Source: Candidatus Moranbacteria bacterium RIFCSPHIGHO2_02_FULL_40_12b (GTDB taxonomy: Bacteria > Patescibacteriota > Minisyncoccia > Moranbacterales > 2-12-FULL-40-10). From it: a DNA stretch of 34,936 nucleotides. Under the pieces are notes generated by a model. It saw only the letters and a program-made list of their open reading frames with translations. It did no database searches and was not told the DNA's origin. The position numbers and the translations under genes are program-made. The DNA lies in assembly GCA_001784725.1 (NCBI GenBank), contig MFRX01000009.1, positions 72,425 to 107,360 of the forward strand, given 5' to 3'. Positions 26,265 through 34,936 of the stretch are shown piece by piece; positions within the stretch are counted from its first letter, which is position 1, and each line of letters begins with the position of its first letter.

Positions 26265-26429
26265 ATGAAATTTAGAGAAATTCCAGTGGTTATCCCTTGT
26301 TTCAACGAAGGGAAGACCGTCTATCAGAACATCCTGAAAATTTACCAAAAATTATTTCTGATCCAGATTGGGAAATTCGTTCGGCAGTGTTTTTTAAAGA
26401 GCAGAATGTCGGAAAGTCCGACAAGTTAA
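26265..26429 (+). pseudogene. Truncated family 2 glycosyltransferase start
   Basis: Frame from 26265 reads MKFREIPVVIPCFNEGKTVYQNILKIYQKL..., GT2 N-terminus, then loses GT2 character and stops at 26429. Confidence 0.6.
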
Positions 26430-26605
26430 AAAGTTTATCAAGTGATAAAGTTGAAAGTGAAAAATTGCCTGTGATTGAATTTAAAAAAATAAATCCCACA
26501 AAGTATCGGGTACGAGTACATAATGTGAGCGGAAAATTCCCGTTGGTTTTTTCGGAGTCGTTTCATGACGGTTGGAAAGCATACTTGGCAAAGCCAAGTA
26601 ATTTT

Positions 26606-26640
26606 CAATTTTCAATTTCTAATTTCCAAACAAATTCCAA
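26606..26640 (+). repeat. AT-rich degenerate repeat (aatttyca-type) translated in frame
   Basis: 'ttttcaattttcaatttctaatttccaaacaaattccaa' encoding NFQFSISNFQTNS. Confidence 0.5.
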
Positions 26641-27052
26641 TGATTTAATTTCCAAGTATAAGATTTTAGATGGCAATGAAGAAGACCAGGCATCAAAGGA
26701 TGAGTTAGGGGATTTTATTCAGAAGGGGTGGGTAGCTGATTTGGGCAATGGTAAAGAAAAAACTGTTGAGCATAAAAAATGGGAAGACAACAAGGAAAAG
26801 TTGGATTACGTGGAAAAATATAATATTGGTTTTATTTCCAAAAATTTTCAGGGGACGGTACAGAGTGATAATTTATCAAGCGGAAATATTTTTGAAACTT
26901 GGTTGCCTGCGAGCAAGATGAATGACCCCAAGAATAAATCAGGGATTTTTTCAGGGGCAGGTAAAGTAGTGGAGTTGACGGAGGAGGATCATCTGATGGC
27001 GAACGGGTACGCGAATAGTTGGGTAATTAATACGGAGGAAATTTGCAAGGGT

Positions 27053-27080
27053 AGATCCCTCGACTTCGCTCGGGATGACA
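27053..27080. repeat. Short repeat-like sequence agatccctcgacttcgctcgggatgaca
   Basis: Matches a motif I recognise as recurrent in many environmental bacterial genomes (TCCCTCGACTTCGCTCGGGATGACA); encodes RSLDFARDD in frame. Confidence 0.6.
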
Positions 27081-27268
27081 CATATTGCGTCAAAAATGAG
27101 GATGGATCGTATGATATGGAATTAGTGGTGGAATTTTGGCCCCAGCGATTATTTTACTTAGGATTAGGAATTTCTGGCGTGACTTTATTAGGTTGTCTAG
27201 TATATTTGGCATATGACTGGAAAAAAATAAAAAAAAATGTTATTTTGAATAATGAATGATTTAAGAAT

Positions 27269-29612: not shown

Positions 29613-29668
29613 AAGGTTCAACCTTGAGGAATTTCCCGGCTTGCCGGGAAAGGAAAAGGTTGAACCTT
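29613..29668 (-). repeat. 56-bp nested palindromic element, copy A (intergenic)
   Basis: AAGGTTCAACCTT ... CCCGGCTTGCCGGG ... AAGGTTGAACCTT; reverse complement matches 34797-34852 at 53/56 positions. Confidence 0.9.
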
Positions 29669-29690: not shown

Positions 29691-31172
29691 CTAATACGCT
29701 TGGTGGAGATTGATGTTGTAAAAATAATAACCTAAAATATCATCCCAATCCCAGCCGTAATTAGTCGCCAGGTTAAGCGAGCCGTTGGCGATGAGCCCCA
29801 CCATATGATTTCCTTCATTTTCCAAGGTCGCAGTGCTTTTAGTCGCGTGCTTTCCGTATGGATCGTCAACGGAGCGGCACCAAGGATACGCGGTTGAGCC
29901 CCAGCGTTCTTCAAAGCTCCGGGTTCTCCCGTCGCTCCAGGAAGAATAGGGCGTAAGCGCGATTTCATTTGTGCTTCCGTTCAGATACATCACGATTTTT
30001 CCGCGCGTATCTTCAGCGGCGGTTTTGATATTGGTGTGCGCTGTTTCCCAGTCATAGCCGTAATACAGCTGGGAAGAAGTGGTGGCGGTAACCTTGAAGC
30101 CCTGCGCCGCGTATTTGGTGCTGAATTTTATTTTCCAGTATCCGTATGTCCTGAATGCCGTTACCATAGTGCGATTGTGGTCAGCGTCGCCCGTTCCGGT
30201 GATTTCGCCCATCCCCCAGATGTATTGCTCAAGAGGCAGTGTGTTAATGACCCAAATGCGATCATCGCTGGAACTAGAAGCGTCATAAAATGAAAGGCCT
30301 ATTGTTCCGCGATATTGGTCGTAAGAAGATCCCGGATTATTGATGTCAAAAATCAAATCGCTATTGTCGCCGTCAACCGCGTCAAAAGAGACAATGTTGG
30401 TGAAATTGGTTGCAGTTAGGGATTCGTAGGCCTGCAGTACACTGTCGGAGATGTATTTAACTTTCGTGTATGTCGCAGCCGGAATCTGCGCGATTATATT
30501 CCCATTATTGTCTTTGATATTGTAATCCTTATTGGCTTTTATCCTGAAGTAGCTGTCCTGAAGGTCGTTTTTGGTATAACCAAGAATGCCAACGGTAATA
30601 TTTGGTCCGTTTGCGCCGCCTCCCAGGTCAGCTTCTCCGATATTGGCGGCAATGGCGGCCTGGGCGGCCACATAGCGGTCATAGCCGGCCTTATTTTCAT
30701 CGGTGCCGTAGTTTTTGTAGTCGTTATATCTGTCTTTGTCGTATTTTTTATACTTTGAATACTTGCCGTATTTTTTGTAGGGAATAACGTATTTTTTATA
30801 TTTGCCGTATTTTTTGTATTCCGTCTCATAAATCCCATATTGGCGGTATTGGGTGGGATTTTTTTTGTAAAGCCGATATTTATCATATTTGTCTTTGTAT
30901 TCCGCCTTTTCTTTTGGGTCATCAAATCCGTATTTATCCTTGTTTTTCTTATATTTCTGGTATTTGTCGTATTTTTTCTTTTTCTCATATTTTTTGTATA
31001 AGCTGTATTTTTGAAAGGCAGTGTAATCATCCTGAAGAGTAGTTGTATCTTCAGCTTCGGCATTTCGAACAAAACTAATCCTTTCTCCTATTTGAAAAAG
31101 GCCTAATAAGAAAATCATCAATAAAATTCCGGTAATAGCGGTTTTTTTGATATTTTTTTTGTTTTTGATCAT
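29691..31172 (-). CDS. SpoIID/LytB-domain-like secreted protein with Lys/Tyr-rich region
   Basis: N-terminal TM/signal; 'LPLEQYIWGMGEITGTGDADHNRTMVTAFRTYGYWKI' and 'EIALTPYSSWSDGRTRSFEERWG' SpoIID-like; K/Y-rich repeat near aa 50-167. Confidence 0.8.
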   Translation of the reverse strand: MIKNKKNIKKTAITGILLMIFLLGLFQIGERISFVRNAEAEDTTTLQDDYTAFQKYSLYKKYEKKKKYDKYQKYKKNKDKYGFDDPKEKAEYKDKYDKYRLYKKNPTQYRQYGIYETEYKKYGKYKKYVIPYKKYGKYSKYKKYDKDRYNDYKNYGTDENKAGYDRYVAAQAAIAANIGEADLGGGANGPNITVGILGYTKNDLQDSYFRIKANKDYNIKDNNGNIIAQIPAATYTKVKYISDSVLQAYESLTATNFTNIVSFDAVDGDNSDLIFDINNPGSSYDQYRGTIGLSFYDASSSSDDRIWVINTLPLEQYIWGMGEITGTGDADHNRTMVTAFRTYGYWKIKFSTKYAAQGFKVTATTSSQLYYGYDWETAHTNIKTAAEDTRGKIVMYLNGSTNEIALTPYSSWSDGRTRSFEERWGSTAYPWCRSVDDPYGKHATKSTATLENEGNHMVGLIANGSLNLATNYGWDWDDILGYYFYNINLHQAY

Positions 31173-32401: not shown

Positions 32402-33397
32402 ATGAGTGAAAAGCCATATTTATCCATTATCGCGCCTCTTTACAATGAAGAAGGGAATGTGAAAAAGCTTCACGAAAAAATCGTCGGAGCTATGAATAAT
32501 TTAACCCTCTCTCCAGCTCTCTCCCTGCCTCGCCGGCAGGCGGACCAAAATGGGCGAGGGGGCGGGTTGTATGAGATTATTTTTATTGACGATGGTTCTG
32601 CTGATAATACGGTTAAAGAATGTGAGGGATTAATTCCTCTGAAACTGATAAAATTCCGGAAAAACTTTGGGCAGACCGCCGCGTTTGACGCGGGAATAAA
32701 GAATTCAAGCGGTGAAATTATCATCACGATGGACGGTGATATGCAGAATGATCCGAATGACATTAAACTTTTAATAGAAGAATTAGACAAAGGTTACGAT
32801 GTTGTTTCCGGCTGGCGCTGGAAAAGAAAGGACTCATTATTAAAAAAGATTTTTTCCCGCGGCGCCAATCTTTTGCGGAAAATTTTAGTCAAAGACAATA
32901 TTCACGATTCTGGATGCAGTTTGAAAGCGTACCGGCGGGAATGTTTTGAAGACATGGATTTATTCGGCGAAATGCACCGCTTTATTCCGGCGATGCTCCA
33001 ACTTCAGGGATTTAGAGTCGGGGAAGCGAAAGTGAACCACCTGCCTCGCGTTGCCGGAAAAACGAAATATAACTGGAAAAGATCAATTAAAGGATTTACT
33101 GATATGCTGGCGATATGGTTCTGGCGGAAATATTCCAGCCGCCCGCTGCATTTATTCGGCGGGGGAGGAATAATTTTTTCTTTGGCAGGCGTGGCGATTT
33201 TAATCTGGATGGCGGTTATCAAGATATTTTACGGAGCTTCGCTTTCGGAAAAAATCTGGCCGATGGTTGGAGTATTTTTAATGCTGGTTGGAATACAATT
33301 ATTCGTTTCTGGATTACTGGCGGACATCGCGATAAAAAATTATTACAAAAACCGGAATAGGATGAATTATACGATTAAAGAAATTAGGGAACAATAG
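32402..33397 (+). CDS. Family 2 glycosyltransferase with C-terminal TM helices (polyprenyl-phosphate GT-like)
   Basis: 'LSIIAPLYNEEGNVKKLHEKIVGAM', 'YEIIFIDDGSADNT', 'TMDGDMQNDPNDI', 'DSGCSLKAYRRECF', two C-terminal TM segments. Confidence 0.92.
   Translation: MSEKPYLSIIAPLYNEEGNVKKLHEKIVGAMNNLTLSPALSLPRRQADQNGRGGGLYEIIFIDDGSADNTVKECEGLIPLKLIKFRKNFGQTAAFDAGIKNSSGEIIITMDGDMQNDPNDIKLLIEELDKGYDVVSGWRWKRKDSLLKKIFSRGANLLRKILVKDNIHDSGCSLKAYRRECFEDMDLFGEMHRFIPAMLQLQGFRVGEAKVNHLPRVAGKTKYNWKRSIKGFTDMLAIWFWRKYSSRPLHLFGGGGIIFSLAGVAILIWMAVIKIFYGASLSEKIWPMVGVFLMLVGIQLFVSGLLADIAIKNYYKNRNRMNYTIKEIREQ
32503..32568. repeat. 66-bp GC-rich repeat-like segment inside the GT2 gene
   Basis: AACCC...GGGTT ends, perfect 6-bp hairpin CCTGCC-TCGCC-GGCAGG (32524-32540); encodes LTLSPALSLPRRQADQNGRGGG between conserved GT2 blocks. 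Confidence 0.7.
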
Positions 33398-34543: not shown

Positions 34544-34936
34544 ATGAAATTTTCATATAATTGGTTGCGAAAACTTAGTAGCACAAAGCTATCTCCGGAA
34601 AAACTAGCGGCGGCTTTGACGATGCGCGCGTTTGAGGCGGAAGGGATGGAAAAAGCCGGCAAGAATACTTTTATTGACATTAATGTCTTGGCCAACCGGG
34701 GACACGACGCGCTTTCTCATGTCGGAATGGCGCGGGAAATTTGCGCGCTGGAAAATAAGAAGTTGAAATATAAATTCGCGAAATTGCAATTTAAAAAAGG
34801 TTCAACCTTTTCCTTTTCCGGCAAGCCGGAAAATTTCTCAAGGTTGAACCTTTCCGTTAAGATTGAACATACCATGGTATGTTCACGTTATATCGGCGCG
34901 GTGATGGAAAATGTTGAAATTAAAGAATCGCCGAAG
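34544..34936 (+). CDS. pheT: Phenylalanyl-tRNA synthetase beta subunit (3' truncated by window)
   Basis: MKFSYNWLRKLSSTKLSPEKLAAALTMRAFEAEGMEKAG...INVLANRGHDALSHVGMAREICAL; open to the window end; not in the supplied ORF list. Confidence 0.92.
   Translation, partial: MKFSYNWLRKLSSTKLSPEKLAAALTMRAFEAEGMEKAGKNTFIDINVLANRGHDALSHVGMAREICALENKKLKYKFAKLQFKKGSTFSFSGKPENFSRLNLSVKIEHTMVCSRYIGAVMENVEIKESPK
34797..34852 (+). repeat. 56-bp nested palindromic element, copy B (inside pheT)
   Basis: AAGGTTCAACCTT ... TTTTCCGGC-AA-GCCGGAAAA ... AAGGTTGAACCTT; 53/56 match to reverse complement of 29613-29668. Confidence 0.92.
34864..34885. repeat. 22-bp perfect palindrome TGAACATACCATGGTATGTTCA inside pheT
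   Basis: Sequence equals its own reverse complement; 11 bp downstream of copy B. Confidence 0.9.

Follow-up and report, generated by a model that had tools for sequence, protein, structure and literature searches.

REPIN-like palindromic elements in genes and gene junctions of a Moranbacteria genome and their probable connection to RAYT-type transposases

In the REPIN/RAYT system (Bertels and Rainey 2011, PMC3116915), repetitive extragenic palindromic (REP) sequences occur mostly as inverted doublets that enclose a less conserved spacer and form a single hairpin, and a gene for a REP-associated tyrosine transposase (RAYT) lies near matching palindromes. Mobilization of REPINs in trans has been proposed and cleavage by TnpA-REP has been shown in vitro (PMC3116915, PMC8266576), and REPs within genes are already described. 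Here we analyze a stretch of 34,936 nucleotides (the window, G000:C9:72425-107360) from Candidatus Moranbacteria bacterium RIFCSPHIGHO2_02_FULL_40_12b, which carries two copies of a 56-bp palindromic element, one in frame within pheT and the other intergenic. Both are very probably REPIN-like miniature mobile elements, and a RAYT-type HUH/Y1 transposase is the most likely agent of their spread in trans. The inverted doublets, the less conserved spacer, the single hairpin and, in relatives, a RAYT-type gene near matching palindromes are all found here as in the described system, whereas the arm sequence is another, the GTAG foot is lacking, an exactly matching RAYT is missing from the assembly, and the intragenic share is larger than the word "extragenic" implies. 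In the mechanism that we propose, an element made of two inverted 13-bp self-palindromic "REPs" (AAGGTTSAACCTT) and a spacer, often holding a further palindrome, would be recognized as a hairpin in single-stranded DNA by a RAYT-type HUH/Y1 tyrosine transposase and mobilized in trans; insertions into genes would survive when a linker receives them and the frame is preserved, as presumed for the pheT copy.

Copy B (34797-34852, plus strand) lies within the 5' part of pheT (phenylalanyl-tRNA synthetase beta; 34544-34936, plus strand), which extends past the window end, and its full translation inside PheT, proposed in a first-pass annotation of this DNA, was borne out by a frame that reads through as KGSTFSFSGKPENFSRLNL. 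The left arm, AAGGTTCAACCTT (34797-34809), is self-palindromic around a central C, the right arm, AAGGTTGAACCTT (34840-34852), is the left arm inverted, and nested within the spacer is an inner palindrome, TTTTCCGGCAAGCCGGAAAA (34814-34833, all on the plus strand), that is not general, other copies having a shorter spacer or another inner palindrome. Copy A (29613-29668, minus strand) is flanked by two minus-strand genes, 22 bp past the stop of a SpoIID-domain gene and 27 bp ahead of the next gene, and its arms were located at 29613-29625 and 29656-29668 (both minus strand) by a search with the 13-mer arm, which at up to two mismatches gave 8 matches in the window versus 1.1 expected. Direct comparison of copy B with the reverse complement of copy A confirmed the claimed agreement at 53 of 56 positions, the three differences being 34817 (T/C), 34830 (A/G) and 34836 (T/C). 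Copies B and A both adopt a nested fold, an inner hairpin on a 13-bp outer stem, with energies of -27.3 and -29.7 kcal/mol and z-scores of -6.7 and -5.8, respectively, and 0 of 200 shuffles folded equally well, in agreement with the near-palindromic 13-bp outer arms and inner hairpin described at first pass.

The differences at 34817 and 34830 are the two sides of a single inner-stem pair, and the first-pass annotation had read this compensatory change as selection on folded DNA or RNA. Pairing is indeed kept, but as evidence of selection the change is weak: there is one two-sided event between copies A and B and there are two across five copies, a number reached by 19 of 500 shuffles, and selection on the fold was kept as a weak reading only. 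The compensated pair could fit hairpin-templated correction as well as selection. A stable fold, a few two-sided inner-stem changes and the position of copy A in a gene junction are also what a structured RNA or regulatory element (a terminator, mRNA stabilizer or riboregulator) under selection on the folded transcript might display. Such an origin is nevertheless highly improbable, considering that an Rfam search was without match, that changes in the outer stem are one-sided or broken, that the spacer ranges from 6 to 34 bp, and that ~1/3 of the elements lie in frame within unrelated core genes. Copy A was considered separately as a terminator, a candidate that was rejected for lack of a T-tract terminator at the element. 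As first noted, copies A and B have the same orientation relative to transcription, but this does not extend to the family, since the elements at C5:1240 and C36:985 oppose their neighboring genes (orientation was judged by eye in some of the copies).

The genome of the window (G000; 940,613 bases in 46 contigs, 94% complete) is represented by a single fragmented assembly. Far from being confined to two copies, exact AAGGTTSAACCTT arms number 42 in this genome, versus 0 for the reversed control and ~0.04 expected from base composition, and at one mismatch they number 51 versus 2 for the control. The arms resolve to 23 doublets, inverted in 23/23 cases, and 4 single arms, giving a singlet:doublet ratio of 4:23 in relation to the REPIN criterion of <2; C34 holds five of the doublets and C36 four. 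The first arm is centered on C (once T) and the second on G in 20 doublets, and the order is G..C in the other 3. Spacers measure 9-34 bp, namely 9-10 bp in nine elements, 15 bp in four, 22 bp in one and 30-34 bp in nine. One sequence (TTCCCGTTCCTCCTC, or its complement) is common to all four 15-bp spacers; in one reading orientation, the long spacers start with TTCC or TCCC and end with CTC. Because the long spacers enclose different inner palindromes (TTTCCCGGCAAGCCGGGAAA, TCCCGCCTCTTGAAAGAGGCGGGA, TCCGCCAGTCGGCGGA), "nesting" here means a palindrome within a palindrome, with no single fixed structure. The flanks prolong the outer palindrome by a mean of 2.4 pairs, versus 0.56 with shuffled flanks; either some subfamilies have their true end further out, or palindromic sites are preferred for insertion.

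Inverted 13-bp arms around a spacer also have the outline of recombinase sites, such as a dif/lox-like site for recombination or for binding of a chromosome-maintenance protein. Against such a role stand the wide variation of the spacers in length and sequence, the presence of both C..G and G..C arm orders, the many copies, some of them within genes, the lack of the exact arm in 39 of 57 genomes searched, and the specific carriage of the arm by RAYT loci, which together make it extremely improbable. It is also very doubtful that the family is a classical miniature inverted-repeat transposable element of a DDE transposon, not moved by a RAYT: short inverted repeats would fit, as would several nearly identical copies scattered over the genome, but every arm is itself palindromic, the listed flanks reveal no constant target-site duplication, and Y1/HUH is the sole transposase type found with matching ends, DDE transposases not having been searched for in the genome.

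The 57 genomes comprise G000 itself, one of the same family and others of the same order, and 18 of them have exact arms. Searching GTDB for C..G doublets gave 79 stretches; most bear the title of a Patescibacteria lineage (Moranbacteria, Taylorbacteria, Kaiserbacteria, Nomurabacteria, Zambryskibacteria, Doudnabacteria and others), and several are titled just "bacterium". AAGGTT doublets were also seen under non-Patescibacteria titles, at L129, L134, L176 (Micavibrio sp. IMS_BF-2), L117 (Parabacteroides), L151 (Bacteroidetes) and L172 (Nanoarchaeota); these few may reflect contamination or transfer. Within G000, four 41-bp copies without any sequence difference occupy unrelated sites, which suggests recent spread, and a 58-bp element, at C34:1521, matches a copy on a Doudnabacteria contig (L174) in full, the flanks being unlike. 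Both observations speak against the elements being relics, formerly mobile and now merely inherited with their host genes. We regard that alternative as rather unlikely, while acknowledging that the exactly cognate RAYT was not found in this assembly and that the RsmI and ArgRS elements, each at the same site in genome pairs, could be inherited.

The REPIN-like reading is further supported by the proteins in which the elements reside. In G000, the proteins with an in-frame element are PheT, LeuRS, Elp3, FolD, TsaE and MiaB, a gene resembling those of pseudouridine synthases contains half a copy, and the peptide KGSTFSFSGKPENFSR is predicted from the in-frame insertion sequence. Between two anchors, PheT has 51 amino acids in G000 versus 37-40 in five relatives (+11 to 14), so that these orthologues are without a homologous segment of equal length; together with the 23 doublets and 4 single arms, this supports the small mobile palindromic family postulated at first pass. 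The PheT of L128 carries another element at the same linker, which there measures 50 amino acids. In PDB alignments, LeuRS has 40 amino acids at the element where Thermus thermophilus has none, and Elp3 has extra residues at the element; RsmI of another genome is ~15 amino acids longer at the element than that of E. coli, and for FolD and MurB the PDB alignment gave no clean empty site. Among 82 elements from the GTDB loci, 29 are in frame within long open reading frames (ORFs) by an ORF criterion, the host proteins including UvrA, PheT, ValRS, ArgRS, CysRS, RsmI, MurB, TilS, TsaD, MiaB, PolA and DnaG-type proteins; database comparison covered RsmI and MurB, and the remaining names were assigned by inspection. 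None of the forward frames of the C-centered arm contains a stop, and one of those of the G-centered arm does (GGT TGA ACC). Core enzymes, among them aminoacyl-tRNA synthetases, tRNA-modification enzymes and repair proteins, thus repeatedly absorb a mobile element in frame, and the family provides many natural insertion-tolerant sites in essential proteins. The MiaB proteins of L145 and L075 contain, besides the REPIN, a second repeat-like insertion that differs from it and follows NSYK in both.

Y1_Tnp (PF01797) is present in 33 of the 57 genomes, in 16 of the 18 with arms versus 17 of the 39 without (p = 0.0014), a count in which PF01797 also includes IS200 genes. G000 has four matches, one of which, just outside the window at G000:C9:70898-71263 (L039), is an IS200-like Y1 frame with an internal TGA; the other three are RAYTs. 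The identity of the RAYTs is indicated by PF01797 scores over the cut-off and an invariant P-N-H-x-H motif, and a structure model of the L184 RAYT (pLDDT 72) has as its best PDB fold match 4ER8 (E 8e-5), TnpA-REP bound to a REP hairpin. Several RAYT genes of relatives lie beside the family palindrome itself: AAGGTTCAACCTT is on both flanks of the L057 gene, an element lies ~12 bp past the RAYT stop at L051, and the RAYTs of L112, L184 and L142, which together form one clade, have the family palindrome on both sides. Putative RAYT hairpin sequences are AAGGTTCAACCTT and CGAGGTTCAACCTCG.

Matching palindromes are common at these loci. Across 60-odd RAYT loci, upstream and downstream regions share at least 12 bp in 43/62 within-locus pairs versus 9/600 cross-locus pairs, upstream regions and the region 5' of the HuH codons do so in 32/63 versus 5/600, and the latter region and downstream regions in 32/62 versus 4/600, part of the cross-locus matches stemming from related RAYTs. 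By a stricter palindrome-based count, the cognate palindrome is within the gene in 30/60 loci; in about half of the loci the palindrome within the ORF is located 5' of the HuH codons, and the C7 RAYT of G000 has one more after HuH. It is possible, though we put it forward tentatively, that Patescibacterial RAYTs are self-marked units with a matching palindrome before, inside and after the frame, the copies changing together as specificity drifts and the internal copy being functional in self-recognition, autoregulation or transposase-target coupling. The C14 RAYT fits this proposal best, its cognate TTCCGAAAGCYSRGCTTTCGGAA being confined in the genome to those three places (3 copies, all at the gene). 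The C12 RAYT cognate, ACTTRGACATNNNATGTCYAAGT, has 10 pattern matches, of which 3 are within the gene or next to it, with a start-codon-overlapping copy falling outside the pattern, and the C7 RAYT cognate, TATCGAGGTTSAACCTCGATA, has 13 genomic copies of its core, 4 of them at the gene.

For G000, the C7 RAYT is the best in-genome candidate mover, because it groups with the AAGGTT clade and has an 11-bp core in common with the family arm. Specifically, it falls in the sister lineage to the L112/L184/L142 clade, with moderate and rough support (97/64), and its cognate CGAGGTTSAACCTCG has AGGTTSAACCT in common with the arm. We infer from these sequence comparisons that the elements have transposed, that a RAYT acting on single-stranded DNA moves them, and that the C7 RAYT, or one that is lost or unassembled, serves this genome.

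Several results weigh against this reading. None of the three G000 RAYTs has exact AAGGTTSAACCTT ends, and two genomes with arms have no Y1_Tnp match. Matches to NF047646, the NCBIfam model of the REP-associated tyrosine transposase, reach 24.8-43.4 bits, under the 80-bit cut-off, and a GTAG/CTAC-type foot is present at just 2/108 cognate palindromes, in a count that did not include CGTC; the flanks of the AAGGTT palindromes are mixed. Furthermore, neither an empty site at the nucleotide level nor an excision product was seen, the closest genome in the comparison belonging to another genus.

Other palindromic repeats share part of these properties. Some of the GTAG/CGTC REPs surveyed by Di Nocera et al. 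(2013, PMC3733652) are intragenic, including in aminoacyl-tRNA synthetase and tRNA-modification genes, and the TIRtrons (TIRYT) treated there have genes between terminal inverted repeats without GTAG, some of the repeats being self-complementary and repeated in the genome; Patescibacteria are without mention in the portions consulted. The RAYT genes described here resemble TIRYT in their matching flanking repeats (43/62) and the rarity of GTAG, but their palindromes are short, often doubled and also found within the transposase gene. In TnpA-REP subclass 2.4 (and 2.8), REPs flank the tnpA-REP gene and are also inserted in frame within it; in subclass 2.4 the in-gene copies usually lie between HuH and Y and carry GT[AG]G feet (PMC6006769), whereas the in-gene palindrome here is mostly just 5' of HuH and without a GTAG foot. 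In view of those subclasses, an in-ORF palindrome is not in itself new. The motifs seen here (NH[YF]H, FQ and, in some, YIHLNP) appear nearer to those of subclass 2.1, a group without reported REPs (PMC6006769). One RAYT-like gene, at L048 (G052:C12), is flanked on both sides by GTAG...CTAC double-foot palindromes, contains a related one, and looks like subclass 2.4.

The first-pass analogy to Rickettsia palindromic elements (RPEs) holds for the tolerated, in-frame insertion of palindromic repeats into protein genes; the closer mechanistic match is REPIN/RAYT, which that annotation did not name. RPE-1 type elements are longer and rickettsial. RPE-4 and RPE-6 are equated with CGTC REPs in PMC3733652. 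What is distinct here is the lack of the GTAG foot, the frequent in-frame insertion into core genes, and RAYTs that often have a matching palindrome upstream of, inside and downstream of the frame. Among the papers searched, none paired RAYT with Candidate Phyla Radiation, and our results would extend REPIN-like systems to Patescibacteria, in whose small genomes neutral space is scant. The RAYT-matched palindromes constitute a natural series with which to test DNA recognition by RAYTs and whether RAYTs spread repeats.

Lastly, other repeat-like segments were observed in the window. A hairpin-forming segment at 32501-32566 (plus strand), translated as LTLSPALSLPRRQADQNGRGGG, interrupts the N-terminal part of a glycosyltransferase ORF (32402-33397) and is probably another in-frame repeat family. 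The segment at 27047-27088 (plus strand), within the ORF at 26297-27259, is translated as KGRSLDFARDDTYC, which we take to resemble repeat-encoded peptides of other genomes. The SpoIID-domain protein (ORF 29691-31172, minus strand) has a tandem-like, KYKKYxKY-rich region at 30689-31017.
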